From a virus, in IMG/VR virus record IMGVR_UViG_3300042198_000296, positions 1-22,930 of that record: DNA of 22,930 nt; one strand, written 5' to 3'. This document shows positions 4,622 through 22,930 of the stretch, piece by piece. A program made the translations under genes and the position numbers. The notes under the pieces are model-generated. The model did not search any database. It saw nothing but the letters and a program-made list of their open reading frames with translations, and had not been told where the DNA came from. Position 1 is the first letter of the stretch, and the number at the start of each line of letters is the position of its first letter.

Positions 4622-4715
4622 GCGTGCCCACCTTGCCTACCCTATTCCTGTACGTTCCAACCTGTGCGCGCTACGCGGAGCTGGTATGGAAACATGGTAG
4701 GCAAGGTGGGCACGC
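4622..4715. repeat. 20-bp perfect inverted repeat with structured spacer
   Basis: GCGTGCCCACCTTGCCTACC at 4622-4641 is the exact reverse complement of 4696-4715. The 54-base spacer contains a second, imperfect pair (GTTCCAACC against GGTATGGAAAC), so the whole 94 bp could fold into a long stem with one asymmetric internal loop. Partial copies of the GTGCCCAC / GTGGGCA core occur at about 4454-4461 and 4568-4574. The repeat could be an origin structure, a binding site for a dimeric protein or a structured RNA. Confidence 0.75.
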
Positions 4716-8204: not shown

Positions 8205-8440
8205 CTTTTCTCGGGACGAACATCGGCAAGGGCATGACCGACGACCTCGCTTTCGAGGCGCTGGCGAAGTTCCCGGCCGGAGTCGCTCCCGACTACTGCT
8301 TCATGAATCGCCGCGCGCTGGAGCAGCTCCGCCGCAGCCGCACGAAGGTCACGAGCCCGACGGGCGTTCCCACTCTGCCGGACAACGTGGCCGGCATCCC
8401 GATTGTCATCACCGACTCGCTGCGGAACGACGAGGTTTAG
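8205..8440 (+). pseudogene. Phage major capsid protein, C-terminal fragment
   Basis: On the + strand the frame reads LGTNIGKGMTDDLAFEAL, KFPAGVAPDYCFMNRRALEQLRR, SRTKVTSPTGVPTLP and GIPIVITDSLRNDEV. This is the pattern of the C-terminal part of a phage major capsid protein family, where a (M)TDD, FPAG..PD, MNR.(A/S)L..L..SRT, (P)T...GIPI..TDS series is usual. The N-terminal two thirds are absent: an in-frame TGA lies just upstream (near 8195) and the flanking DNA belongs to the winged-helix gene. The fragment ends at a TAG (8438-8440) where the methyltransferase-side sequence begins, a few residues short of a normal C-terminus. It is the scar of a phage head gene broken by the island. The left limit is approximate. 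Confidence 0.7.
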
Positions 8441-11400
8441 CTACTGCGTCCCCGCGAATTGTAGTTCTGTCTTTGTCACTGAGGCCGTATAGCCCGAATA
8501 CTTCCTCATCCAAGGCTTCCATCAACGATGCGAGGCGCTTCTCGTCAGCAGCGTTCACCTCTGGCCCCGTTCGCTCACGCAACGCCGTAAGTTCTTTCGC
8601 GGTGCGGAGTAACTCTCGTGACACAAAAGAACTAGGAATAGGGATCTCACCTACGTTAGTCGGCGAAAAGTTAATGCCGCCATCCATTGCGAGAGCGCTG
8701 TAGCACTCCCTGAGGAAAAATCGCGCGAGCTGCGAGTTGAGTATTCCGAGCAAACAATACCATTCGTCTTCACCAGCAATTCCGCGGATAACGACCGTGG
8801 ACTTCCCCGCAACGACCTCGCCATTCAAGTCTAGGATTGATTCGAAATGCCGCATTCCTGAGATGATAATCTTTGCCGAAGACATCTGAGTATAGCGTCT
8901 TGGAAACATCGCTTTGAATGCCGCTTTCTCGAGAACGGGGCACATGTATTTCGTCTTGAGGTATGTGGTCTGCGAGTAGCCCCAAAGCGAGTAGAACGGC
9001 TCGATAGTCCCTGTATTGATAAACCGGAACGCTCCTTTCATCCGGCGGTCGTCTTGAAGTAGTTCGGTAAGCTTATATGCTTCGCCCACCGTAAACGCTT
9101 CCTCCAAAGAACACAGGTTCCTAAGGGGCGTGTGTTCTGCCAAGAGCTTTGAAATCAGCGGCAAATGCTGGCTCAGCACGGCACCCCAACTCGACATCTC
9201 TGCAAAAGCCGTACGCGGCAACGATGTCGAAAAAATTTGTTCGTGGCCGTCGGAGAACCGTGCCATGTCCATCGTTGCCTTGCTTCGAGGCGATGCGAAT
9301 TGGACGACTGGAAACACACCAACGTTCTCGAACGCGCGAAAACGCGAGTAGTCGGCAATCCCGTAAATCATGTCCTTGGCAAAGGCGCGATATGCTTGCC
9401 CATAGCTGATCGCCAACCACTTGTTTGGGGTGATCAGACAGCTCGTGCCTTGGCGAGATAGCTTCGCTAACGAAAGTTCCAAGAAAGGGATGTATAGATC
9501 CCAGTTGCCCTTTGTCGTCGAGAATCTTGCCCCGATTGCCGTGCGAACTTCTGGTTGCTCCCGCACCATGACTTCGGAATCGACGTAAGGCGGATTGGCA
9601 ATCATGACATCGAATCCTCCTCGGGTGCGGAAAACCTCTGAGAAGTAAATCTCGAAGTCGAAGCTGACTTCGTAGCCAAGGCTGCTCTTGGACGCAGCGA
9701 ACGCTTGCGCCAGTTCGGAATCGATCTCGCGCTTGAGCTTCCGTTTTTTGTCGTGGTCGGTTTCGTCGAAGTATTCGGCCTTGAGCTTTTCGATCTTTTG
9801 CACGCGCTGGGATTTGAACGGGAAGCCGAGCAGGGAGTTTCCGACGACGATCTTGTAGTCGAGGTTGGGCAGTGGCTTGATCTGCTGCACGTCGTCCTCA
9901 TCTACGACGAGCGAGAGCCACAGGCGCAGCTTGGCGATCTCGACGGCACCGGGATCGATGTCCACGCCGTGAATTGAGCTTTGGATGACGTGGCGCTTGA
10001 AGTGGTAGGCCGTGCGTTCGGCCACGTCGTTGAAGTAGGGCGTGAGCGCCATGCGAGCGCGCACGATTTCCGTCATCATGCCGACCGGGAACGCGCCGGA
10101 GCCGATGGCGGGATCGCAAACAGTGATGTCGCGCAGGAGGGCATCAATCTCGCGCGCGAACTTGCGGATGGAGTCAGGTGGCTTGGGATAGTTGTCGCCG
10201 CGCGTCCCGGCGGCGATGGCCGCCGTGTAGTGGGCGAACTGGTCGCTCTGCCGAATCCAGACTTCCAAATCCTTCCGGGCTACGAGGACTCGCTGCCGGG
10301 CATCGGTGAACTCCCCCTGCGTAGGCCGTGCCTTGGGCTTTTCCGATGAGTCGCTGAAAAGCGGTGGCTGCTGGTCGGGCTGAGGCGTCGCGGCACCGAT
10401 TGGCGCGACCGGGCTGTTGAGTCCGGTGTCGAGGTAGTTGATGAGGCTCTCCTGACACATGAAGTGAACGATCTCGCGCGGCGTGTAGAATGCTCCGAGC
10501 CCCTTGCGGCGGTTTTCTTCGATGAGGTTCTCGAAGACCTTTCCTAGCATCTCAGGGTCAATGGCGACTTCCTGCTCCAGCGGCTCGGCTTCGTTGACCG
10601 TGAAGTTGTAGCGGTCGAAGACATCAAGGATGCCGGTGCCGACATCGCCGACGTCGCTGCGGGTCGTGTTGGCGAAGAGCGCGTTGGGCAGGTCGATGTC
10701 GGTCTTTTTCCACTCGTAGCCGGCGAGCGGCTCGAACAGGCCGCCGTTCAGGAACGGGATGCGGCAGGCAAAGATTTTGCACCACGCCGCGTGTCCGCGA
10801 TCGGTGGCGAGCGTGTCGTAGAACAGCGGTTCGAGCACGTCGTTGAAGAGGCACTTCTTTTCACCGATGGCGCGGTTGGCGAGCTGACGCAGAAAATTGC
10901 GGGGCCCGTTACCCCAGTTCCCGCCTTTAGCCACGCCGAGCCATCCCTTCTTTTGGATGAAGTAGAGAAAGACGATCTGGCCGAGCAGCTTCTTGGCGAA
11001 GTCGATGGTGGTAACACCCTTTTCCTTGAAGTCGTCGCGGATGGCTTTCTCGCGCCTCACCACGGCCGCGAGCGCATCATTGGTGTCCTCGAAGAGCCGC
11101 ACATACTCGCGGAAGAATTCTTTGGTGACAGATTCGACGCTGAACGCTTCCTCGATGTCTGCGAGCGTCGGCTTGTCGTCGGTGTTTTGCAGCAACGCGA
11201 GAAAGCGGCTCTGTGCGGTGTGACATTCCTCGTCCGCGCCGACGAGGTAGGAGTAGCGCCGCGCCGGGGTGAGACGTTCCTCGGGCTTGATCTTGCCGGT
11301 GCGCGGATCGCGCTTTGTCTCGTATTCCATGCGGACATACGAGAAGCGCCAGGCTTGCGAATCGGGCGCGACGAACGCGACGAGGCCGGCTTCCTTGTAG

Positions 11401-11708
11401 CTCTCATCGCGCTTGAGCTTGTGGGCGACGAAATCGCGCAGCGCGGTTCGAGTGCGCTCCAGCTTGAAGGATTCAGTGAGCTGCACCACAAGCACGTCCG
11501 TCAGCTCGCCGTCGGGAGATTCAAACGTGCCGAGCCGCTGGCAGCTTTTGATGTGCAGCGCGAAAGCGTCCGGCACGCCCATCGAGGGAATCGCCTTTGA
11601 TTCATCAATGCCGTTGCAAAGTTCGTTGATGAAGTCGCGGTAGCGTTTTCTGTCGAACGGCGCCTTGAAGGTGTCGCGGACGATGCGTTGAGCAGTGGTC
11701 TTGTCCAT
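8409..11708 (-). CDS. Eco57I-like adenine-N6 DNA methyltransferase (type IIG/DrmMI-like architecture)
   Basis: This 1099-residue protein should methylate adenine in a specific DNA sequence using S-adenosylmethionine. Residues 1-230 are a poorly characterised N-terminal domain (ELTDVLVVQLTESFKLERTRTALRDF) with no clear PD-(D/E)xK catalytic set. A helical domain follows, then GAFYTPREIVHFMC (405-418), SAM motif I DPAIGSGAF (532-540), GVDIDPGAVEIAKLRLWLSL (581-600) and catalytic NPPY (705-708). Residues about 720-1075 should hold the target recognition domain. The gene starts 3 bp after the helicase stop, so the two are translationally coupled. The final 12 or so residues (AVAKPRRSAASR) are antisense of the capsid relic, which supplies the stop. 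The recognition half is visibly lower in GC than the catalytic half. A self-contained type IIG enzyme is less likely because no nuclease motif is visible. Confidence 0.85.
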   Translation of the reverse strand: MDKTTAQRIVRDTFKAPFDRKRYRDFINELCNGIDESKAIPSMGVPDAFALHIKSCQRLGTFESPDGELTDVLVVQLTESFKLERTRTALRDFVAHKLKRDESYKEAGLVAFVAPDSQAWRFSYVRMEYETKRDPRTGKIKPEERLTPARRYSYLVGADEECHTAQSRFLALLQNTDDKPTLADIEEAFSVESVTKEFFREYVRLFEDTNDALAAVVRREKAIRDDFKEKGVTTIDFAKKLLGQIVFLYFIQKKGWLGVAKGGNWGNGPRNFLRQLANRAIGEKKCLFNDVLEPLFYDTLATDRGHAAWCKIFACRIPFLNGGLFEPLAGYEWKKTDIDLPNALFANTTRSDVGDVGTGILDVFDRYNFTVNEAEPLEQEVAIDPEMLGKVFENLIEENRRKGLGAFYTPREIVHFMCQESLINYLDTGLNSPVAPIGAATPQPDQQPPLFSDSSEKPKARPTQGEFTDARQRVLVARKDLEVWIRQSDQFAHYTAAIAAGTRGDNYPKPPDSIRKFAREIDALLRDITVCDPAIGSGAFPVGMMTEIVRARMALTPYFNDVAERTAYHFKRHVIQSSIHGVDIDPGAVEIAKLRLWLSLVVDEDDVQQIKPLPNLDYKIVVGNSLLGFPFKSQRVQKIEKLKAEYFDETDHDKKRKLKREIDSELAQAFAASKSSLGYEVSFDFEIYFSEVFRTRGGFDVMIANPPYVDSEVMVREQPEVRTAIGARFSTTKGNWDLYIPFLELSLAKLSRQGTSCLITPNKWLAISYGQAYRAFAKDMIYGIADYSRFRAFENVGVFPVVQFASPRSKATMDMARFSDGHEQIFSTSLPRTAFAEMSSWGAVLSQHLPLISKLLAEHTPLRNLCSLEEAFTVGEAYKLTELLQDDRRMKGAFRFINTGTIEPFYSLWGYSQTTYLKTKYMCPVLEKAAFKAMFPRRYTQMSSAKIIISGMRHFESILDLNGEVVAGKSTVVIRGIAGEDEWYCLLGILNSQLARFFLRECYSALAMDGGINFSPTNVGEIPIPSSFVSRELLRTAKELTALRERTGPEVNAADEKRLASLMEALDEEVFGLYGLSDKDRTTIRGDAVAKPRRSAASR

Positions 11709-11711
11709 GGG

Positions 11712-14700
11712 CTAGGGAAGGTAGGAAGAAAGGATGACTTCGCGCGGTGCGAGTGGCGCATCCTTGTCGGGTTTGTGCGCCGCGCCCACAAGATACTGGC
11801 GGGCGATGTCCTTGTGGAGAATGGCGAGCATCGCCACGGGATCGTCGGTCTTGTCGAACGCCTCCTTCACCTTGCGGATTGTGGCCTTGCCCACGCGGCC
11901 GTCGGCGATGATCTGATGCACGGCAGCGCCGAATTTTCGCTCCTCCGGCGTGAGCACGTCGGCGTTGCGAAAGCTGCGGGCGCGGAGCCGCTTCAAGATG
12001 ATGGCCTCGTTGCCACCGCCCGCCGCGGTCGAGGGAAGCAGCGTCTCGACGCTCGGCGTGGTCGCAGTCGCAAAGCCGTCCTTGTTCTTGTCGAGCAGCG
12101 GATAGAACTGCTCGGGCGGGATCTCGCGCCGCTTCTCGCTGGCGGTGGTTTCGAGCGTCTCGGCGGTGGTGAAGAAGTCGAGTTCCTCGGCGCGCTCGAT
12201 GTCGGCGTGGGAGCGGAAAAATTTGTCGAGCCGGTCCTGGCGGAAGTAGCTGATGACGGCGGGGCGATCCGGGCGCGGCGTGACCGCATCGGGATGTTCT
12301 GCCGGCCCCGGCTCCGGCGCGTGGAAGCGCGTCGAGCGGGCCTTGCGCGGCAGCGCGAGGATGCGCTGGAAAAGCTCCGGCTGCTTCTCCTTCACGTCGA
12401 GAATCTGGCGCAGATATTTCAGCTCGCTCTTTTGCTCCTCCCCGCCGCCTTCCGCCGACTCCTTCGAGTTGATGCGGTCGAAAAGATTGTGCGACGTGAT
12501 TTGCTCGTCGCCGGTGAGCAGGCGCGCGTCATTGCCGAGCAGCGAGATGAACGCGGCGATCTTCGACTTGGCCGACTCGGTGAGGGCGATCTGGTCGTTG
12601 CCCTCATCGGTCGGGAAGAAGTTGTAGGTGGAGATGGTTTTGAATTTCGTGCCGACGCGGTTCACCCGTCCGACGCGCTGCATCATGCGGCTCGGGTTCC
12701 AAGGGATGTCGTAGTTGATGACCGTGGCCGAGCGATGAAGGTTCACGCCTTCCGCGAGGACATCGGTGGTGATGAGGATGCGATAGTCATCGAGCGGCTC
12801 TTTCTTGTTCGCATCGAAGTTCGCGATGACCTCGCGCCGCAGCTCGGGGCTGGATGTCGAGCTGAAGAGCAGCGTCTCCGGCTCGACTTCCTTTTTGATC
12901 TTCTCCGCGAGATAGCGCGCGGTGTCGGCGAACTCGGTGAAGATGATGAGCTTCCCCTTAGCGAGCGTGGTGGTGAGCTGGCGCTTGAACTCGATCCACT
13001 TCGGGTCGCGCTTGATCGCCTTCCACGAGGTCTGAATCTGGCGCAGCGTCGCGAGGTCGGAGGCGACGTGCTTGCGGAAGTCGGGCGTGAATTTTCCCGC
13101 GTCGAACTCCTCGGCTTTTTCCTGCGCGATGAGATCGGCGATGGCGTCGTCGTCGCCTTCCTCCAGGAATTCGAGCACCTTGTTGCTGTGCTTGCGGCTC
13201 GTATAAACGGAGCCGTCGTCGAACGCCTGCAATACGAGTTCGTGGGACTTGATGAAGCGCGCGAGCGTTTCCTGAAATGCGTGGAAGCTGCTTTCCAGCC
13301 GCTTCACGAGCAGGATTTTCATGAAGGTGGCGAGGTTGCGCTGGCCCTGCACGGCGCGCTCTTCCATCGGCCCGGTGTAGTATTCGGGATTGAGCGGCTG
13401 GTAGCGGGCGTAGTGGAAATCGGTGCTGGTGATGCACTCCAGCGTGTCGGTGAAGACGGCGCTTTCCGCGCGGCTGAGCTGGTAGAGCAGCGGCACGGGA
13501 TCGCTGACCTTCGGAAACCAAATCTTCTGCTTCTTGAGGTCGTCGCCGTAGAACTCCTCAATTTCCCTGCGCGTGCGGCGCACCATGATGTATTTGAGCA
13601 CGCGCTCGCGCAGCTCGTGGGCGTTTTCCTCGATCGCGGCGACGTATTGCTCGGCGTCGTCGAGCCGATGGAACGGCTTGAGGCGATTGCGCAGCTTGTC
13701 GAAAAATGCCTCCAGATTGCGGAGTCCTGGGATGGTGCTGTTGCGCGGCGGCTGGAACAACTTCAACTGGCTGTAGATGTCGTCGAGCGTGTTGTTGTAG
13801 GGCGTGGCGGAGACGAGGATGACGCCCTTGCCCTGGCAGATGCGCGTGAGGTGTTCGTATCGCTGTGTGGAGTCGCCTTTGAAGCGGTGCGACTCGTCGA
13901 TGAACACGTATTTGTAAAACTCGACGCCTTGGTCGATGACCTCTTCGAGCTTGCCGATCGATACGCACTTGTGGCCGGGGATGCAGAAGTCGCGGAAGAC
14001 GCGCGGCCACGAGCCGGGGCTGTTTTCATCGAGCAAACTCGGCGGCGCGATGATGAGGCAGCGGCCATCGAGTTGCAGCGCGAGCAGCGCGGAGATGAAG
14101 GTTTTGCCGAGGCCAACGACATCGGCAATGAAGACGCCGCCGTAGGTCTTGAGCATCTGCAGCGCGGTGAAGACGGCATCCTCCTGGTAGCTGAGCTTCT
14201 TGAAATTCTGCGGCAGATTTTCCGCGTTCAGCTTCGTGCGGTCGCCGAGGTAGTCGCGGAAGTATTCGGCAAGGAACTTGAGGTAGAGTTCGTAGGGCGA
14301 GAAGAACGCGAACGGCGATTCCTTTTCCACGGCATCGAGGATCGTCTCGTGAACGTCCTTCACATCCACGGCGTCCTTCCACAGCTCGTTGAAGCGGTGC
14401 AGCGCGTAGTCGTGGTCCTCCGGTTCCGCGAGCAGCACGTTGAACTCGAGGTTTCCTTCGAGGCCGCTGTGCGAAAAGTTGCTCGACCCGGTGATGACGT
14501 AGCCGTGGTTCACGCTCTCCAGCGGATGCTCCGGCGTCATGATATAGACCTTCGCGTGGATGTTCTGCTCGCGGTAGAGCTTCACCTCCAGCTTGCCCGA
14601 GCGAATCCACTCGATGAACTTCCGCACGCCCGTCTCGATGGCGAGTGTGTCCTTCGCCTGGACGAGTTCCTTTTTCATCATGCCGCCGAAGATCGTCTTG

Positions 14701-15566
14701 ATCTCCGCCGTGGAGGGCGCGCCTTCGCCTTCGCCGTCGTTGGCGATCTGCATGAGCCCGTGGACGACGTGCTCGTTTTTTAGCCCGATGAGGATGCGGA
14801 TTTTCTTGATGGTTTCGAGCGACGGATAGAGCCGAAAAAAGCCGCTGATGAAAAAATATCCGACGAGACAATCGAAGTCCTGCATCAGCGGCAGAATTTT
14901 CTCCAGCCGCTTGCTCAGCGTGTTCTCGCCTTGATTGGTGAGAAACTTTTTCGGTGCAATGGGAATCGACTGAAACGCAGTTGGGTCTCGTGCTCCGGCA
15001 CTTGGCGTGGGGGGGATCGCTTTAACGCCGAGTAGTTCGAAATCGTCAACGAAGGCCGCTAGCAGTGGGTCTTTCGTTTTGAAGCCTGCAAGAATCTTTT
15101 CCGCCGCCATTCTTGTAGTTCGCACTACAATCTTACTGCTGTTGGCCTGCTCTACTGAAACAGTCTCAACTTCTCCGGGTCTGCCTGTATAGGCGGCCAA
15201 ACAGGATGCGAGTTCGGGAGCGCGCTGGCACATTTCGGCGACCTCTTTCTTCACTAGGATTTCGAGAAGCTGGACGAGATGCGCGTTTGTTCCTTCAGGG
15301 GCGTTGCTTTTCCGGGCCAAGATGCACGGGTTTTTTTTGTATTCCCGGAGCACGGAAACGCCCCATTTTTCTCCATCCGCCCGGGTGTGGCAGCCTGCAC
15401 AGAGGGCAACCAGGTTTGCGACGCTATGCACATGGCTCTTGCTCCAGGGAATGACATGCGCTTGTTCCAGCGGAAGGCCATTGCAGCAGACGGCGCAGTG
15501 GTGGCGTGCTTCAAAGAGGACTTCGCGGCGAATCGCGATGGGAATTGCCGGGCGATTTTGGCTCAT
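11712..15566 (-). CDS. HNH-PLD-SNF2 helicase fusion (restriction-like effector)
   Basis: A 1284-residue multidomain protein. Residues 20-62 are an HNH nuclease: CAVC (24-27), His37 in QAHVIP, Asn51 in VANL, CAGCH (56-60). Residues 90-200 are a linker of unknown fold. About 226-400 is a PLD-type nuclease with one H-x-K motif (His337, Lys339 in IHAKVYIM) and the following GSSNFS (360-365). An SF2/SNF2 helicase follows: Q motif LSYQ (458-461), Walker A GLGKT (485-489), Walker B DESH (557-560), SAT (586-588), motif V TTDVLAEGVNLH (933-944), motif VI QRVGRVNRVG (963-972). The C-terminal 200 residues include a Pro-rich linker and no known domain. It would translocate on DNA using ATP and cut with HNH and/or PLD sites. 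It is coupled to the methyltransferase gene (3-bp gap), arguing for one system. No clear ribosome binding site precedes 15566. Confidence 0.85.
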   Translation of the reverse strand: MSQNRPAIPIAIRREVLFEARHHCAVCCNGLPLEQAHVIPWSKSHVHSVANLVALCAGCHTRADGEKWGVSVLREYKKNPCILARKSNAPEGTNAHLVQLLEILVKKEVAEMCQRAPELASCLAAYTGRPGEVETVSVEQANSSKIVVRTTRMAAEKILAGFKTKDPLLAAFVDDFELLGVKAIPPTPSAGARDPTAFQSIPIAPKKFLTNQGENTLSKRLEKILPLMQDFDCLVGYFFISGFFRLYPSLETIKKIRILIGLKNEHVVHGLMQIANDGEGEGAPSTAEIKTIFGGMMKKELVQAKDTLAIETGVRKFIEWIRSGKLEVKLYREQNIHAKVYIMTPEHPLESVNHGYVITGSSNFSHSGLEGNLEFNVLLAEPEDHDYALHRFNELWKDAVDVKDVHETILDAVEKESPFAFFSPYELYLKFLAEYFRDYLGDRTKLNAENLPQNFKKLSYQEDAVFTALQMLKTYGGVFIADVVGLGKTFISALLALQLDGRCLIIAPPSLLDENSPGSWPRVFRDFCIPGHKCVSIGKLEEVIDQGVEFYKYVFIDESHRFKGDSTQRYEHLTRICQGKGVILVSATPYNNTLDDIYSQLKLFQPPRNSTIPGLRNLEAFFDKLRNRLKPFHRLDDAEQYVAAIEENAHELRERVLKYIMVRRTRREIEEFYGDDLKKQKIWFPKVSDPVPLLYQLSRAESAVFTDTLECITSTDFHYARYQPLNPEYYTGPMEERAVQGQRNLATFMKILLVKRLESSFHAFQETLARFIKSHELVLQAFDDGSVYTSRKHSNKVLEFLEEGDDDAIADLIAQEKAEEFDAGKFTPDFRKHVASDLATLRQIQTSWKAIKRDPKWIEFKRQLTTTLAKGKLIIFTEFADTARYLAEKIKKEVEPETLLFSSTSSPELRREVIANFDANKKEPLDDYRILITTDVLAEGVNLHRSATVINYDIPWNPSRMMQRVGRVNRVGTKFKTISTYNFFPTDEGNDQIALTESAKSKIAAFISLLGNDARLLTGDEQITSHNLFDRINSKESAEGGGEEQKSELKYLRQILDVKEKQPELFQRILALPRKARSTRFHAPEPGPAEHPDAVTPRPDRPAVISYFRQDRLDKFFRSHADIERAEELDFFTTAETLETTASEKRREIPPEQFYPLLDKNKDGFATATTPSVETLLPSTAAGGGNEAIILKRLRARSFRNADVLTPEERKFGAAVHQIIADGRVGKATIRKVKEAFDKTDDPVAMLAILHKDIARQYLVGAAHKPDKDAPLAPREVILSSYLP

Positions 15567-15653: not shown

Positions 15654-17783
15654 TCATGCCGCGTCCCGCAGTTGGCGCTTCCGCGTGGCCCAGGCGCGGG
15701 CCAGTGAACCGGGCGGCTCCAGCATGGCCAGCGGTGGCGCGTCGGCGGCGCGGTCGCGTTGCCGGCGGTGCAGGCGGAAGGCGGCTTCGGCGGCGGTTAA
15801 ACGGTCCCGCAGGGATTCCTCCCACTCGCGTTCCATGTCGCGCTCGTCAATTGTTGGGGCCGCCGGGTCGAAGTTGCGCACGGCCTTTTCCAGCAGCTTC
15901 GCCAGATCGACCTCTTCGACCACCTGCTCGATGAGTTGCCCGTCGAGTCCGAGCTGCGCGCTGTCCAGCTTCGCGCCAAAGTCGGCGTCCATCAGCTCGT
16001 CGATCGTATTCCGCGTGGTGAACGTGTAGATCGTCACGTCCTCGCGGGAATTGAGCCGCCAGACGCGGTGAATGAATTGCTCGTTCTCGTCCAGCGCCCA
16101 GCTTTTCGAGGGCAGGAAAAGATGCTTCGCGCACTCGAAGCTGTGCCCCTTTCCCATCGCCTTCAGTCCCGCCACGATCACCGAATACTCGCCTTCCTTG
16201 TAGCGCGCGGCCATTGCTCCGCGCCGCTTCGCGCTCACGCTGCCGTCGAGCAGCACGCTCGAAACGCCCGCATCCGCCAGCCGCGAGTGCAGGGCGGAAT
16301 TGAACGGCTCGAACGGCGAGCCGATGATCACCTGTTCGCCCTGCGCGATAACCTCCGCCACCTGCGCGCAGATCGCCGCCATCTTCGGGTTCAGATCCGT
16401 CCACGATTTCTTCGGGCCGATCGTTTCGGATTTCGAGTTTCGGATTTCGGGTTTCCCGCCAAAGCGGGTGTTGCTCGTCACGGTCTGCGCCAGCGTGGCG
16501 GCGTGCGGGCAGAGCGCGGCCGTGCGCAGGGTCGTGAGCTGCATCCCGATTTGCACGCGCCGCTCCACCGGCTTGGTCGGCGTGGCCCGCGCCGCGAGCG
16601 GCGGATTTTCCAGGTGAAAGCGATAGACCTCCTGCTGCGTGCGGCCGGGCGGGATGCAGATGGGCTGGACGATCTTCTGCACGATGGGCAGCCCGCAATC
16701 GTCCTTGCGCCGCCGCAGGATGATCGGCGCGGTGATCTTCCAGAACCGATGCACGTTGCAGAGCCGGGCGGTGCGCTTCTCGATCTTGATGCTCCGCGCC
16801 TTGCCGTGCTTGCAGTAGTGCGCCCGCTCGGCCTCCTCCTCCCGCGTCAGAAATTCGTCGTGCTGGAGATAGTGGTTGGCGAATTGCTCGCGCGCCTCCG
16901 CGGTGCCCTCGTAGGGGAAGCGCGCCGTCGGGCCGGGCTGGTTGCCGCACACCCATTTCATCAGCCAGAAGGCGCTGTCCACGCGGTTCTTAATCGGCGT
17001 GCCGGTGAACACGTAGCGGTAGCGCGGGTTGAGCATCCGCACGCCGTTGCCGAGATGCGAGTTGTCCGCCTGCATGATCGTCCCCTCGTCCACCAGCACC
17101 ATGTCGAAGCAGTCGTGCTGCGCGAGCATCCGCGCCAGCGTAGGCTTCCACACGCAGCGGATGGTGAGGGAATGTTGAGAGTTGAAAGTTGAGTGTTGAG
17201 AGTTCGGAGTTCCCGGAGCGGGCGGGTTCTTACTCTCAACTAAAGGCGAAGCCGTTCCCTCAACTCTCAACTGGTAAGTCCGCTCCGCGCCGATGCCTTT
17301 GAACCATTCATTCGCGTCCAGGTGCTTCTCCCCGCGCAGCCGCGCCGCCACGTATGCCGGCACAAGCTGCTCCAGGTCGTAGAGCCGCGCCCGCATCCGC
17401 GCGTCGCGGGTTCTGGCCAGCCCTTCGTCCTGCATTTCCGCCGGCCACTCGTCGGCGTTGTTGTAGCCGAGATTGTGGAAGCTGGTGATGAAGAAGCGCG
17501 GCGGCGCGGCGTCCGGGTGCGGGCGGTAAAGGCCCATCGGCCCAAGCTGCTCGATGCGCTCCAGCGTGGTCAGATGGACGTGGAAAAACTTGGCCGCGCT
17601 CTCTTTGTGCTGCTGGTGCAGGTCGTCGGGCGCGATGAGCAGGATGCGCCGCGCCCGCTTGATGAGTGCGAGCGCGATGGCCGCGATGGATTTTCCTAGC
17701 CCCTGTTCCCAGCCGCAAATCGCGCCGTCGAGAATCGCGAGCCGGGGAAGGTCTTCGAGTTGGAAGTCAGGGAATTTCAACAT
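15654..17783 (-). CDS. Phage-type SNF2 family DNA helicase
   Basis: This 709-residue SF2/SNF2 ATPase has a Q motif near DFQLEDL (6-12), Walker A GWEQGLGKS (24-32), Walker B VDEG (231-234), motif III-like TGTPIKN (260-266), and a C-terminal half ending in motif VI QFIHRVWRLNSRED (569-582). This spare architecture beginning right at the Q motif is typical of helicases in phage replication regions and is unlike the defence helicase downstream. Two insertions interrupt it in frame: residues about 172-207 (repeat element at 17174-17271) and about 443-458 (heptads at 16423-16457). Neither falls in a helicase motif, so the enzyme may still work. It lies upstream of the HNH-PLD-helicase in the same orientation with an 87-bp gap, so co-transcription is possible. 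The start at 17783 follows a heptad-like leader with no ribosome binding site; a truncated N-terminus is possible. Confidence 0.8.
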   Translation of the reverse strand: MLKFPDFQLEDLPRLAILDGAICGWEQGLGKSIAAIALALIKRARRILLIAPDDLHQQHKESAAKFFHVHLTTLERIEQLGPMGLYRPHPDAAPPRFFITSFHNLGYNNADEWPAEMQDEGLARTRDARMRARLYDLEQLVPAYVAARLRGEKHLDANEWFKGIGAERTYQLRVEGTASPLVESKNPPAPGTPNSQHSTFNSQHSLTIRCVWKPTLARMLAQHDCFDMVLVDEGTIMQADNSHLGNGVRMLNPRYRYVFTGTPIKNRVDSAFWLMKWVCGNQPGPTARFPYEGTAEAREQFANHYLQHDEFLTREEEAERAHYCKHGKARSIKIEKRTARLCNVHRFWKITAPIILRRRKDDCGLPIVQKIVQPICIPPGRTQQEVYRFHLENPPLAARATPTKPVERRVQIGMQLTTLRTAALCPHAATLAQTVTSNTRFGGKPEIRNSKSETIGPKKSWTDLNPKMAAICAQVAEVIAQGEQVIIGSPFEPFNSALHSRLADAGVSSVLLDGSVSAKRRGAMAARYKEGEYSVIVAGLKAMGKGHSFECAKHLFLPSKSWALDENEQFIHRVWRLNSREDVTIYTFTTRNTIDELMDADFGAKLDSAQLGLDGQLIEQVVEEVDLAKLLEKAVRNFDPAAPTIDERDMEREWEESLRDRLTAAEAAFRLHRRQRDRAADAPPLAMLEPPGSLARAWATRKRQLRDAA
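16423..16457. repeat. Heptameric short tandem repeat inside the phage helicase gene
   Basis: Five consecutive heptads, GTTTCGG ATTTCGA then GTTTCGG ATTTCGG GTTTCCC. On the - strand they are translated in frame as part of GKPEIRNSKSETIG, a low-complexity tract unlike the flanking helicase sequence. This is the pattern of short tandemly repeated repetitive (STRR) heptads. Confidence 0.75.
17174..17271. repeat. 98-bp foldback repeat element inserted in frame in the phage helicase gene
   Basis: The element is bounded by 12-bp perfect terminal inverted repeats, GTTGAGAGTTGA (17174-17185) and TCAACTCTCAAC (17260-17271), each extended by imperfect TTGAGAG/TTGAAAG heptads, around a GC-rich centre with another CTCTCAAC. 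It encodes an insertion of about 36 residues on the - strand (ending TPNSQHSTFNSQHSLT) without breaking the frame. It resembles a tiny non-autonomous mobile or REP-like element. Confidence 0.7.
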
Positions 17784-17785
17784 GG

Positions 17786-17815
17786 TGGTTCGTTGGTTTC
17801 TTGGTTTTTGGGTTT
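17786..17815. repeat. Heptad-like repeat at the start of the phage helicase gene
   Basis: TGGTTCG TTGGTTT CTTGGTT TTTGGGT lies immediately upstream of the helicase start codon. Its spacing and composition resemble the other heptad tracts, and it replaces what should be a ribosome binding site. Confidence 0.5.
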
Positions 17816-18153
17816 GGAAATTTCTGAAGCTCTTGGGGCGAGTTCGGCTGGGGCGCGGAAGTGGAAGGAAGGATGGTCGCGCTCCTGGGACCTCGGGCCA
17901 CGCGAAGCCAAAGCGGCAAACCGGCAGTGAGCCGATACCTTCGGCCAGATTTTATCTTGCCGGGCGCTCCTGAACCGGCCAGACTCCGCAACGGAATGAA
18001 CTCCCGGAACCTACGCTGCACGGTCGGCGAGCCAGACTCCTCACGCGGAGAGCCTGCTACCTGCTCTTATCCTCTCGCCCGCCCACTAACACTCGGCGTT
18101 TCCCTAGGAACGACATTTTCACGATTACTGACCATTCAAACAGCACACCTTCC
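17816..18153. other. Divergent intergenic region with no gene seen
   Basis: This stretch of about 340 bp separates the divergent phage helicase and the repeat-rich secreted protein. Open frames of 84-139 codons cross it but show no domain, signal peptide or start site that I trust. It should contain promoters for both directions, yet no clear -35/-10 pair stands out, and no ribosome binding site precedes the GTG at 18154. Confidence 0.4.
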
Positions 18154-21141
18154 GTGAAAGCAATCCTGTCCCTTTTCCTCGCCATCGCCCTGCTCCTCGT
18201 CCTCCCAGCGGGGGCGCAGATCACCACCCGCACGCTGGACATCGGCACCAACGGCAGCACGGGGCGATACACCTCGCAGGCTGTCGTCAATGGCAACCCG
18301 GCCATTGCTTATTGCGCGGACACGAAAAATAACCTCATGTTTGCCCGCAATAGCGCGACGGATGGCTCGGGTACATGGACGATCACTACCGTGGACTACG
18401 CTGGCGACGTGGGCTGGTTTCTTTCGCTGGCGGTGGTCAATGGCAACCCGGCCATCAGCTACTACGATGTCACCAACGGTGACCTCAAATATGTACGGGC
18501 GCTGGACGCGAACGGGACGAACTGGGGCACGCCTGTAGCCGTGGACAGCACCGGCAGCACAGGGCGATACACTTCGCTGGCGGTGGTTAATGGCATCCCG
18601 GCCATCAGCTACTACGACCTCACGAACGCCGACCTCAAATATGTGCGGGCGCTGGACGCGAACGGGACGAACTGGGGCACGCCCGTAACAGTGGACAGCA
18701 CCGGGAGAGTGGGCAAATACACCTCGCTGGCGGTGGTCAATGGCAACCCGGCCATCAGCTACAACGATGAAACTCAATCACTCGATTCCAACCTCAAATA
18801 CGTGCGGGCGCTGGACGCGAGCGGGACGAACTGGGGTCCGCCCTTGACCGTAGACAGTGCCGGCAGAGTGGGTGCCGACACGTCGCTGGCGGCAGTCAAT
18901 GGCAATCCGGCCATCAGTTACTACGACGTCACCAACGGCGACCTCAAATACGCCCGGGCGCTGGACACCAGCGGGACAAGCTGGGGCACGCCCGTGACCG
19001 TGGACAGCACCGGCAGCGTGGGCGCTTACACCTCGCTGGCGGTTGTCAATGGCAACCCCGCCATTAGTTACCGCAATGGCAACAGCGGCGACCTCAAATA
19101 CGTGCGAGCTCTGGACGCGAGTGGGACGGGCTGGGGCACAGCCATTATCGTAGACAGCGCCGGCAACACAGGCTTCTGGACGTCGCTGACGGTAGTCAAT
19201 GGCAATCCGGCCATCAGTTACTACGAAATCACAAACGGCGACCTGAAATACGTGCGGGCGCTGGATGCGAGCGGCACAAGTTGGGCAGGGGCCACCACGC
19301 CGGACGACGCTGCACAGAGCGGCAGCGTTGGCACAGAAACCTCCCAGGCGGTGGTCAACGGCAACCCGGCCATCTGTTACTTGGATGCCAGTAATCAAGA
19401 CCTCAAATACATCCGGGCGTTAGACGCAGCCGGAACGAGCTGGGGCACGCCCGTGTCTGTGGACAGTCCCGGCGATATGGCCCTGTACACCTCGCTGGCG
19501 GTGATCAATGGCAACCCGGCCATCTGCTACCACGATCAGATCTCTGGCGACCTCAAATACGTGCGGGCGCTGGATGCGAGCGGGACGAGCTGGGGCACGC
19601 CCGTGACCGTGGACGGTGCCGGCACTGTGGACGGTGACCGCACCGTGGGCACCTACACCTCGCTGGTGGTGGTCAACGGCAACCCGGCCATCAGTTATCA
19701 CGACCAGACCAACGACGACCTTAAATACGTGAGAGCACTGGACGCAAGCGGGACAAACTGGGGTACGCCTGTGACCGTCGATAGCATTGGCAGCGTGGGC
19801 ACCTACACCTCGCTGGCGGTGGTCAATGGCAACCCGGCCATCAGTTACAACGATGAAACAAATTTTTTCGACGCCGATCTTAAATACGTGCGGGCTCTCG
19901 ACGCAAACGGGACAAACTGGGGCACTCCCGTGACCGTGGCCAGTGCCGGTATGGTGGGCCAATATACGTCGCTGGCGGTAGTCAATGGCAACCCGGCCAT
20001 CAGTTACCACGACGTCACCAACCGTGATCTCCTTTATGTAAGGGCATTGGACGCGAGTGGGACGAGTTGGGATACGCCCGTGACCGTCGATAGCATCGGC
20101 ATCGTGGGGCTCTATACCTCGCTAAAAGTGGTCAATGGCAACCCGGCCATCAGTTATCACGACCAGACCAACGACGACCTTAAATACGTGAGAGCACTGG
20201 ACGCAAGCGGGACAAACTGGGGTACGCCTGTGACCGTCGATAGCATTGGCAGCGTGGGCACCTACACCTCGCTGGCGGTGGTCAATGGCAGCCCGGCCAT
20301 CAGCTACTACGATGAGGAAAACACGAGCCTGAAATGGGCGACGATTGGACCTTATGCCGAGATCGTGGTGACTCAAGCCAGCGCGCTGACCGATGGCGCA
20401 GGCAGCGTGGCCTTTGGCACGGTGACCGTAGGCAGCAGCGCGCAGCTCACCTTCACCATCACGAACCCGGGCACGGCCGCCCTGACCAGCCTCGCCGTGA
20501 CCAAGGATGGAGCGGACAATGCCGCCTTCACGGTGAGCGCGCTGAGCGCCACGACCGTCCCCGTGGGCCCAGGCACCGCCACTTTCACTGTCACCTTTTC
20601 TCCCGGCGCAGGCGGAACGAGCAACGCTGGCATCCACATCGCCAGTAACGTGACCGGAGCGAAGAACCCCTTCGACATCGCGCTGACGGGGATAGGGCAG
20701 ACGGTGTTCGAATCATGGGCTCTCGCCTATAGCGTGCCGAACGATCCAGATGCCCTTGGCACCAATGGAATCAAGAACCTGCTCAATTTCGCTTTCGGGG
20801 TGAACCCGAACACCGGCAGTAGTGGACCGCTAGTTTACAACGGCACGCTGGCCGGCGGCGGCACGATCACCGCGACCGGTCAGCCGACGACGCTCTTCGA
20901 GAGCATCCCCACCGGGGTGGACTTCCGGGCGCTCTTTGTCCGCCGGGACGATTACGTGGCTGCCGGGCTGACCTATACCGTGCAGTTCAGCCCTGACCTG
21001 ATCGACTGGACGCCGAGCATGGTAGATCCAACGGTGCTGGCCGACAACGGCCCTCACCAGATCGTCAGCGTGCCATTTCCCGGCTTCCTGAGCGGCAAGA
21101 AGGCCCGCTTCTTCCGCGTGCAGGTGACAATCTCCCCCTGA
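18154..21141 (+). CDS. Secreted repeat protein with 14 propeller-like repeats and choice-of-anchor D domain
   Basis: A 995-residue exported protein. The GTG start gives a clean signal peptide (KAILSLFLAIALLLVLPAGA, cleavage near residue 21). Fourteen repeats of about 50 residues follow (nt 18283-20340), consensus VVNGNPAISYYD..NGDLKYVRALDASGT then W-G-T-P-VTVDS-x-G-x-VG-x-YTSLA, a beta-rich unit consistent with propeller blades; fourteen would suit two seven-bladed propellers. Next is an Ig-like 'choice-of-anchor D' domain (VTVGSSAQLTFTITNPGTAALTSL), and finally the ~130-residue C-terminal domain common in Verrucomicrobia exported proteins (ESWALAYSVPNDPDALGTNG, NLLNFAFGVNP, RRDDYVAAGLTYTVQFS). 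No catalytic motif was seen. It is likely a cell-surface or extracellular binding protein and may be co-transcribed with the PEP-CTERM gene 24 bp downstream. It has no link to the phage genes. Confidence 0.8.
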   Translation: MKAILSLFLAIALLLVLPAGAQITTRTLDIGTNGSTGRYTSQAVVNGNPAIAYCADTKNNLMFARNSATDGSGTWTITTVDYAGDVGWFLSLAVVNGNPAISYYDVTNGDLKYVRALDANGTNWGTPVAVDSTGSTGRYTSLAVVNGIPAISYYDLTNADLKYVRALDANGTNWGTPVTVDSTGRVGKYTSLAVVNGNPAISYNDETQSLDSNLKYVRALDASGTNWGPPLTVDSAGRVGADTSLAAVNGNPAISYYDVTNGDLKYARALDTSGTSWGTPVTVDSTGSVGAYTSLAVVNGNPAISYRNGNSGDLKYVRALDASGTGWGTAIIVDSAGNTGFWTSLTVVNGNPAISYYEITNGDLKYVRALDASGTSWAGATTPDDAAQSGSVGTETSQAVVNGNPAICYLDASNQDLKYIRALDAAGTSWGTPVSVDSPGDMALYTSLAVINGNPAICYHDQISGDLKYVRALDASGTSWGTPVTVDGAGTVDGDRTVGTYTSLVVVNGNPAISYHDQTNDDLKYVRALDASGTNWGTPVTVDSIGSVGTYTSLAVVNGNPAISYNDETNFFDADLKYVRALDANGTNWGTPVTVASAGMVGQYTSLAVVNGNPAISYHDVTNRDLLYVRALDASGTSWDTPVTVDSIGIVGLYTSLKVVNGNPAISYHDQTNDDLKYVRALDASGTNWGTPVTVDSIGSVGTYTSLAVVNGSPAISYYDEENTSLKWATIGPYAEIVVTQASALTDGAGSVAFGTVTVGSSAQLTFTITNPGTAALTSLAVTKDGADNAAFTVSALSATTVPVGPGTATFTVTFSPGAGGTSNAGIHIASNVTGAKNPFDIALTGIGQTVFESWALAYSVPNDPDALGTNGIKNLLNFAFGVNPNTGSSGPLVYNGTLAGGGTITATGQPTTLFESIPTGVDFRALFVRRDDYVAAGLTYTVQFSPDLIDWTPSMVDPTVLADNGPHQIVSVPFPGFLSGKKARFFRVQVTISP
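18283..20340 (+). repeat. Fourteen coding tandem repeats of about 150 bp
   Basis: Each unit encodes V-[VI]-N-G-x-P-A-I-x-Y and then LKY-[VAI]-RALD; most are 50 codons, with a few 53-56. The first and last units are divergent. Units 10 and 13 are identical over 154 bp (19678-19831 and 20137-20290), 459 bp apart, although other units differ at many silent sites. Confidence 0.85.
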
Positions 21142-21165
21142 AGCCCTTCCAGCCTTACTCGCCCC

Positions 21166-21765
21166 ATGAAATCCCAATTGCTCCTGCTCCTTCCCCTGCT
21201 CGCCGCCGCCACGCCGGCCAGCCGGGCGGCCATCGTTTATAGCGGCGTGCAGGATTTCCCGATTCCGTTCGACCTCGAAGGTTCCTATCTCCGCATCGAC
21301 ACCGGGGCGACAGCCGGGGCACTCCCCGGTGGCTGGTCCACCGCGCCGTGGATCAACCCCTTTTTCGGCGGCGTGAAAATCGCCAACAGTCCGCTGCTGC
21401 GGCCCGTGATCACCGGTTCCTCCCAGATCCTCAACCTGGCCGTGGGCACCGTGATCGACGGCACGAGCAACTTTGTGGCGGGCGAAAGCGGTTCGGAAAC
21501 GCACTTCGGCATTGGGGTCGGACAGTTTGCCCTCAATGTCCCCGGCTACCTGGGCATCACCTTCCGCTCCACGGTGGGCGGGCCGGATCACTACGGCTGG
21601 ATCGAGGTGCAGGTCAGCAACGTCGGGCCGGGGAAGATCATCTCCTGGGCTTACGAGAACGTCAGCGCGGCCCCCATTCAGGTCGGTGCGGTCCCGGAGC
21701 CGGGATGCCTGGCGCTGCTTGGCTTGGCGAGCGCTGGATTCGGCTTGGGAAGGCGTCGGCGATAA
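21166..21765 (+). CDS. PEP-CTERM sorted exported protein
   Basis: A 199-residue protein with an N-terminal signal peptide (KSQLLLLLPLLAAATPASRA) and a C-terminal PEP-CTERM signal: VPEP, a hydrophobic helix (CLALLGLASAGFGLG) and the basic end RRRR. That signal directs recognition by an exosortase, with cleavage and attachment at the cell surface or in extracellular matrix. The 150 residues between are glycine- and serine-rich beta strands; the section ITFRSTVGGPDHYGWIEVQV resembles parts of other PEP-CTERM proteins of unknown function. It starts 24 bp after the repeat-protein stop, so the two form a likely operon. The exosortase itself is not in the window. Confidence 0.82.
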   Translation: MKSQLLLLLPLLAAATPASRAAIVYSGVQDFPIPFDLEGSYLRIDTGATAGALPGGWSTAPWINPFFGGVKIANSPLLRPVITGSSQILNLAVGTVIDGTSNFVAGESGSETHFGIGVGQFALNVPGYLGITFRSTVGGPDHYGWIEVQVSNVGPGKIISWAYENVSAAPIQVGAVPEPGCLALLGLASAGFGLGRRRR

Positions 21766-21795: not shown

Positions 21796-22930
21796 TCACC
21801 CCCACTCCAGCGCCCGCAGCCGCCGCTGATACTCCGCGAATTCCTCCGGGTGAACCTGCGCGATGTCAGGCACGTCGGGGATGTGGAAGCACTCCACGAG
21901 TTCCGCGAGCAGATGGAAATGCTGCTCGGGCCGCTCGGCCTGCTGGTCGCGGCCGAGATCGTATTGCGTGAAGGCGTGCCACGCGCCGGCGTCGTCCCGG
22001 ATGCGCAGGAGCAACTCCTGGCCGGTCACGAGCACTTCCTCCTTGCGGTCTTTCTCGCCGTTGTGGTGGGGGCGTCTCTCCACCTTTCGACCCTGGAACG
22101 TCTCGCTTTCCAGCGGATACGAGCGGCCCGCCGTGAAGCCAACGCCGGGCGGGTGCTCGCAGCGAATGTCATCCTCTTCGTCCAGATGCCCTAACCGCTG
22201 GACGGCATTGAGCGGACGCAGCGGCGCGCGCACGGCGTTGTAGTTCTTCATCGCCGCGTCCACCGCGGCGGTCACATCGGGATGCACGCGCCACACGCCG
22301 CCCTGCACCGCCAGCACCAGCGCCTTGCGCGAGTTGCGCTGCACCACGAGGCCAGCGGGATGCTGGCCGTCAATCGCCTTGAGCGCGTCCACCAGCTCTT
22401 TCGGCACGTCGCCGGTGATCGTCTGAAAGGGTGTGACGTAGGCCGCGATCATGCCCTTCGCCGTGAGCCGGATGTTCCAGCCGTTGCGTGCCGCATACTC
22501 CGCGTCGGTCTGCCGCTTCCACTCGTCGGCCACCGCCTCGAAGGCGCTCCCCGTGCCGGGCCAGCAGTCATGCGAGCGTTTCACCGTCTCGCCCGCGATC
22601 AGCTTGTCGCGGTTGTCGGCGGCAAACTGCAGCACGCGGCGGATGGTGCCGGGCATGGCGTCCTGCGCCGTCACTTCCAGCGGGGCGCTGCCGTGGTGGC
22701 TCGCCGCGAAATACACCACTGCGATGTGCATTTTCTGAAGCACGCCGGGGAAGAAATTCGGCAGCGTGAGCTTTAGCCAGGTCTTGCGCCACAGCGGGTG
22801 GGTTTCGAGCAACCGCGCGCACGTCGCCGCGCTGCAAATCATCATGCCCTCGCCGCGCTTGGTCAGCAGCCGGTGGGCGACCTCGAAGGTGGCGAGCGTG
22901 CTGTCGATGAAAAGTTGAGGGTTGAAAGTT
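21796..22930 (-). CDS. Unknown protein, partial at the right edge
   Basis: The - strand frame is open from the right edge to a TGA at 21796-21798, giving at least 378 residues. An internal ATG at 22845 would give 349. I do not recognise the family. Visible features: helical, basic N-terminal part (ATFEVAHRLLTKRGEGMM, then CARLLETHPLWRKTWLKLTLPNFFPGVLQKMHI), a central alpha/beta section (GWNIRLTAKGMIAAYVTPFQTITGDVPKELVDAL), and a C-terminal section (GFTAGRSYPLESETFQGR, then LLLRIRDDAGAWHAFTQYDL). No nuclease, methylase or ATPase motif was seen. The first visible residues (TFNPQLF) come from a TTGAGGG/TTGAAAG heptad tract, the same repeat as inside the phage helicase. It faces the same way as that helicase, so both may once have belonged to one phage operon. 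Confidence 0.55.
   Translation of the reverse strand, partial: TFNPQLFIDSTLATFEVAHRLLTKRGEGMMICSAATCARLLETHPLWRKTWLKLTLPNFFPGVLQKMHIAVVYFAASHHGSAPLEVTAQDAMPGTIRRVLQFAADNRDKLIAGETVKRSHDCWPGTGSAFEAVADEWKRQTDAEYAARNGWNIRLTAKGMIAAYVTPFQTITGDVPKELVDALKAIDGQHPAGLVVQRNSRKALVLAVQGGVWRVHPDVTAAVDAAMKNYNAVRAPLRPLNAVQRLGHLDEEDDIRCEHPPGVGFTAGRSYPLESETFQGRKVERRPHHNGEKDRKEEVLVTGQELLLRIRDDAGAWHAFTQYDLGRDQQAERPEQHFHLLAELVECFHIPDVPDIAQVHPEEFAEYQRRLRALEWG
22914..22930. repeat. Heptad repeat at the right edge
   Basis: GTTGAGG GTTGAAA GTT runs off the window. It is the same heptad family as the terminal repeats of the element at 17174-17271 and lies in the open frame of the unknown - strand gene. Its full length cannot be seen. 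Confidence 0.55.

Follow-up and report, generated by a model that had tools for sequence, protein, structure and literature searches.

A putative fold-back element with tandem-heptad arms lying in frame within a viral helicase gene, and similar elements in bacterial genomes

Heptamer arrays are already known, and in-frame insertions of fold-back sequences are best known from Rickettsia. According to the accessible parts of the respective papers, REPINs are doublets of REP sequences that form hairpins, with short conserved copies inverted around a less conserved spacer and located mainly outside genes, single copies also occurring (PMC3116915); Rickettsia palindromic elements (RPEs), of about 150 bp, are found in frame in unrelated genes, to which they add a peptide (MITE review PMC10969869); TAACTGA arrays consist of seven-base tandem units that are mostly intergenic, with a few lying in open reading frames (ORFs) in stop-free orientation (PMC4679880); and GTAG/CGTC REPs are short palindromes found in several phyla, Planctomycetes and Verrucomicrobia among them, that lie in part within genes, often those of replication and repair (PMC3733652).

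The locus considered here lies in a stretch of viral DNA (the window) that comprises a whole IMG/VR virus entry of 22,930 bases, and copies of the element in its own genome are not countable in such a 22.9-kb fragment. The sequence GTTGAGAGTTGA at positions 17174-17185 recurs as its reverse complement at 17260-17271, delimiting a fold-back element of 98 bp end to end (17174-17271, no strand assigned) with the 12-bp perfect terminal inverted repeats stated in a preliminary description of this DNA. The arms are indeed made of heptads, but the left one is longer than described there, consisting of four GTTGANN units on the plus strand (GTTGAGA GTTGAAA GTTGAGT GTTGA, 17174-17199). The right arm holds two heptads on the minus strand (TCAACTCTCAAC, 17260-17271), the perfect complement of 17174-17185, and in the predicted fold the fourth left heptad pairs with an internal heptad of the core (CTCTCAAC, 17233-17240, minus strand). 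The RNA fold of the element reached -41.8 kcal/mol, compared with -24.5 ± 3.2 kcal/mol in shuffled sequences (z -5.5), and the DNA fold gave z -4.4; in both cases none of 200 shuffles equalled the element. It is these heptad arrays and the fold that argue for the element being real, and not the TTGAGAG count, which is at chance level when taken alone (4 observed, 2.4 expected, at least 4 in 22 of 100 shuffles). The number of 12-bp inverted pairs within 100 nt was mildly unusual (10 pairs at two places, whereas 50 shuffles averaged 0.52 pairs). GTAG, CGTC and their complements were absent from 17174-17271 when the sequence was read by eye, and an Rfam scan of the window, which is not a test for RPE families, gave no match.

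The element is located in a gene on the minus strand (15654-17783) coding for an SNF2/phrog_62 helicase of 709 aa (Pfam SNF2-rel_dom and Helicase_C, PHROG 62), to which it supplies codons 171-204 (QLRVEG...FNSQH; 17172-17273, minus strand), as judged from the translation and the homologue alignment. The motifs GLGKS (28-32), VDEGT (231-235) and TGTP (260-263) are preserved, and the segment falls between the first two, which we take to be helicase motifs I and II, at the site that had been proposed for it; the frame is kept as had been described, with a length of about 34 rather than about 36 residues. Also in line with the description, the frame is not disrupted: 709 codons are open on both sides of the element, and of the six frames through it the only stop-free one is the helicase gene's own. 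A scan of viral contigs yielded 13 helicase relatives, 12 of which were aligned (the 13th, a fragment, was left out); these include near-duplicates and represent about nine distinct sequences. Residues 171-204 were absent from all 12, which have one compact loop in common instead, so that the empty site proposed as a check was present in each aligned homologue. By this comparison, the 98-bp segment is an apparent insertion relative to the homologous helicases, its ends being approximate because the homologues are just 40-47% identical. The same low identity, together with the fact that a single contig carries the segment, would also fit an ancestral loop that the other helicases have lost, or a misassembly of the viral contig; we regard this as very improbable in view of the 12 homologues (about nine distinct) with their common compact loop and of a frame that is open on both sides over 709 codons with all motifs intact.

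A second in-frame segment, codons 438-453 (16424-16472, minus strand), contains a TTTCGGA-family heptad array and the hairpin CCCGC-CAAA-GCGGG (16455-16468), and these residues were likewise missing from all 12 aligned homologues. The AlphaFold model of the helicase was weak (mean pLDDT 56.5), with residues 171-204 and 438-453 among its least confident stretches (about 27-33), and the peptide supplied by the element would probably form a disordered surface loop that is tolerated. Immediately upstream of the helicase start codon is a third short-period stretch, GGTTCGTT GGTTTCTT GGTTTTTG GGTTTGG (17785-17825), with a period of about 8.

No exact match to the core was found in viral contigs and, among the matches listed, there was no full-length match in phages, plasmids or 288 Verrucomicrobiota genomes; the matches in these three sets covered the heptad arms and at most part of the core. 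Searches for the host of the phage with terminase and helicase queries returned distant matches only, the helicase giving no hit in the 288 Verrucomicrobiota genomes at 1e-20. A truncated heptad array, GTTGAGGGTTGAAAGTT, is located at the contig edge (22914-22930, plus strand). The recurrence of the heptads in an open frame at the right edge, as previously described, holds in that GTTGAGGGTTGA lies at 22914-22925 in a frame that stays open up to the point where the contig stops; a search for viral relatives of this ORF found none.

Several other features of the contig were observed. An intergenic fold-back with 32-nt arms that are 84% complementary and 30 nt apart (GCGTGCCCACCTTGCC..., 4622-4715) lies between a primase-like gene and the small terminase gene, and its arm was absent from the other loci compared. 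On the minus strand (8409-15566), a Type IIG restriction enzyme-methyltransferase (PADLOC 1e-224) adjoins a 1284-aa protein with HNH, PLD and SNF2 domains that resembles DrmD/HKD-Snf2 defence proteins, and the two genes likely constitute a defence island near the terminase genes. On the plus strand (18154-21765), a PEP-CTERM protein follows one that combines 150-bp tandem repeats with a choice-of-anchor D domain; because these proteins look bacterial and not phage-like, the contig possibly represents the edge of a prophage.

Elements of the same design, in which a GTTGANN array and a TCAACNN array face each other at a distance of about 30-60 bp, were found in viral contigs and in bacterial genomes. 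The viral contigs contained 103 stretches with three-heptad arrays, and among the 28 pairs of opposite-strand neighbours within 260 bp in the viral loci, 25 had the inward orientation of the window pair, and the 3 outward-facing pairs include two between neighbouring fold-backs. The paired pattern was present in at least 120 stretches of GTDB genomes, belonging to at least seven phyla among the 80 titles listed (Verrucomicrobiota, Bacteroidota, Chloroflexota, Planctomycetota, Acidobacteriota, Nitrospirota, Armatimonadota and Clostridia are named, and some titles of metagenome-assembled genomes look unreliable); 123 elements were examined as a set, 122 of which were used in the target-duplication test given below. 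In 48 genomes chosen for carrying the pattern, 788 matches had the window orientation and 39 the reverse, where one element can give several matches. The window orientation outnumbered the reverse in 45 of these genomes, and the reverse matches came mostly from two (24 and 9). Genome G026 showed mostly the reverse arrangement, with TCAAC at the left end (24 vs 10 matches) and a recurrent core, CCCGTCTCC...TTCGAAGCG. Among 287 unselected Verrucomicrobiota genomes, a count that leaves out the centre genome G028, there were 16 matches in 7 genomes, compared with 4 reverse matches in 3. With the pattern in just 7 of the 287, the class is patchy, reaching a high copy number in few genomes.

Arrays of this kind could be 7-bp microsatellites that expanded by slippage on each strand and fold by chance, and according to the available part of PMC4679880 no other class of long repeats is as abundant as heptanucleotides in most of the genomes surveyed; moreover, unpartnered arrays are common, with 175 in the viral loci besides the 25 fold-backs. 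The strong orientation preference speaks against plain slippage, as does the fact that the arms mostly end at four or five units. The viral loci, which had been found with the three-unit pattern, contained 64 two-unit, 65 three-unit, 86 four-unit and 11 five-unit arrays and 2 longer ones, a distribution that is unlike a slippage-type tail. In one Acidobacteriota genome, 16 of the 24 copies read had exactly 5+5 units, and 23 of the 24 carried the off-consensus unit GTTCAAT in at least one arm (counted from the listed copies), which points to copying and not to independent slippage. In addition, both arms are absent together in homologues of the helicase and of SpoIID (see below). Heptanucleotide slippage is thus already disfavoured, and we consider it distinctly unlikely.

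The cores of the Acidobacteriota copies were about 15-41 nt long and differed between copies, and the bases flanking these copies look complementary; visual inspection suggests conserved cores among the copies in Bacteroides and in one Planctomycetota genome. Across 122 elements, inverted complementarity reached about eight bases beyond the heptads. Covariation of the arms was dropped as support, since the similarity of the two arms of an element (15.9 of 19, compared with 14.3 for partners shuffled across genomes) is confounded by genome-specific heptads. Within one Acidobacteriota genome, mirrored changes between arms (3 of 25) were not above the background of 24%, and arm pairing is therefore not demonstrably selected.

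Insertion into genes is constrained by the code: whichever frame is read, a GTTGANN array brings a TGA with every third heptad, and TCAACNN arrays are usually stop-free, so that a fold-back within a gene needs one short arm, as in the helicase. By a mechanical criterion, 21 of the 123 elements lay within an ORF extending 30 codons on both sides, and the remaining 102 did not. When 19 of 20 element-bearing ORFs were scanned with Pfam, 12 had a family match. The element was located inside the domain match in TilS (25 codons; 217 residues over 188 model positions), PSD1 (277 residues over 243 positions) and PriA (526 residues over 481 positions). The clearest case outside the window is a SpoIID gene of Bacteroides: it contains two elements, absent from all orthologues aligned at the respective sites (8 and 9), the SpoIID query was matched in 39 of 41 genomes of the genus, and the element sequence matched many other places in the genus (best 75-88% identity). 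At one of these sites, a single SpoIID orthologue (L246) had a heptad-like loop of a different kind. The idea of the preliminary description that such elements can add protein segments thus agrees with in-frame segments in some real genes elsewhere (TilS, PriA, PSD1 and SpoIID). A Hymenobacter element in a 370-aa ORF (L171) was rejected as intragenic because it is intergenic and the real genes are on the other strand, and ORF spans alone are hence no proof of an intragenic position. An isoleucyl-tRNA synthetase gene (L168) was likewise rejected as a clean tolerated case, given that the gene ends early (378 of 861 model positions). Of the 175 unpaired viral arrays, 35 were in ORFs of at least 250 codons, often with exactly four units and all in the stop-free orientation, as the genetic code demands; by the same ORF criterion, none of the 25 other viral fold-backs lay in an ORF.

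A particular situation was found in Hymenobacter, where one orthologous spacer between two co-oriented genes was surveyed in 61 genomes (60 with a match, 45 spacers read, 42 scorable). A fold with z ≤ -4 was present in 32 of the 42 spacers and in 0 of 45 coding controls. The 32 folding spacers formed 16 clusters, from different species and with no detectable similarity to each other, and contained GTTGANN heptads, other short-period repeats or long unrelated palindromes. Either fold-backs repeatedly land at this site and replace each other, or a hairpin is needed there and its sequence is free. The latter would be expected if a structural hairpin were kept by selection, for transcript ends, mRNA stability or insulation, with its sequence being freely replaced and the intragenic copies being strays; the 102 of 123 elements outside ORFs would also agree with this. 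Selection for a hairpin accounts neither for the in-frame copies (in TilS, PriA, SpoIID and the phage helicase) nor for a fixed arm length and a common off-consensus unit within a genome, nor for the rarity of the class among relatives. We consider it unlikely overall, and it is mainly the Hymenobacter spacer that keeps it under serious consideration. Selfish spread and selection for a hairpin could be told apart with the natural series that this spacer provides.

A target-site duplication, which had been suggested as a check, was not evident in the class: in 122 elements exact 2-mers were found 11 times compared with 5.8 expected, and nothing clear was seen at 3 or more bases. The RAYT/Y1 transposase, the sole transposase family searched, was not supported as the mover. 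Y1_Tnp was present in 39 of the 48 carrier genomes and absent in 9, including those with 82, 40 and 26 matches, although incomplete assemblies may hide genes; it did not correlate with the match count in these genomes (Spearman -0.08, p 0.57), and heptads were near 1 of 30 Y1 loci.

With moderate confidence, we interpret the window segment as a copy, inserted into the helicase gene, of a short fold-back element that is non-autonomous, REPIN/RPE-like and armed with tandem heptads and that was spread by machinery acting in trans. Such an element consists of two inverted arrays of 7-bp repeats (GTTGANN on the left, TCAACNN on the right) around a short variable core, together forming a hairpin, and its copies would probably spread as a whole unit through a hairpin or single-stranded intermediate, a route suggested by the lack of an evident target duplication, with the mover being supplied in trans. 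Inside genes, the survivors would be those insertions that keep the frame open; the TCAACNN arm is largely stop-free, and the GTTGANN arm with its TGA has to be short or luckily framed. In the helicase, the GTTGA-type arm on the coding strand has two heptads and one of six frames is open, and the insertion would have been tolerated for this reason. The earlier notion of a miniature element that spreads is partly supported by similar fold-backs dispersed in the same orientation in many genomes, but not by movement of the window copy itself; no mobility event was observed, and we infer its mobility from sequence. More tentatively, fold-back elements with short-period tandem arms, comprising several heptad families and perhaps octads, could form an undescribed guild in several phyla and phages that spreads without target duplication by non-RAYT machinery, occupies fixed harbour sites where one family replaces another, and occasionally creates new loop peptides in essential genes.

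The presence of a class with simple heptad arms in Verrucomicrobiota, Bacteroidota, Chloroflexota, Planctomycetota, Acidobacteriota and phages would mean that repeat DNA contributes peptide segments to genes more broadly, and would pose the question of what copies such hairpins where a RAYT was not found. Among the papers listed in a literature search, in which sequence-string queries mostly returned oligonucleotides or unrelated sequence and subscription journals were thinly covered, none dealt with this heptad element. The element shares with MITEs of DDE transposons the terminal inverted repeats, while the target-site duplication was not found in the class, and it has neither tag of the GTAG/CGTC REPs. 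With the TAACTGA arrays, as presented in the available part of PMC4679880, it has in common a tandem 7-bp unit (encoding LSVISYQ there and LSTLNSQ-type peptides here); those are direct arrays of another heptamer in other taxa, with one indirect repeat reported and no paired fold-back architecture in that text, whereas the window has an inverted GTTGANN pair. Like RPEs, it is an in-frame insertion in a working gene that is missing from homologues; the host range and probably also the sequence are different, and in the accessible part of PMC10969869 RPE peptides are family-specific and conserved, while here the peptide is largely heptad-derived, and tandem-heptad arms are unmentioned. The likeness to REPINs, as far as the available text of PMC3116915 describes them, lies in an inverted pair with a spacer, roughly 70-120 bp long, hairpin-forming and dispersed mainly outside genes, and the many dispersed copies per genome are seen in the relatives of the window element; the arms of the latter are tandem heptads, whereas those of a REPIN are a GTAG-tagged palindrome, and no RAYT association was found here. 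Set apart by its tandem-heptad arms and by having no REP tag and no RAYT link, the element would, by analogy, resemble a REPIN in the way it works and a Rickettsia palindromic element in the way it lands.
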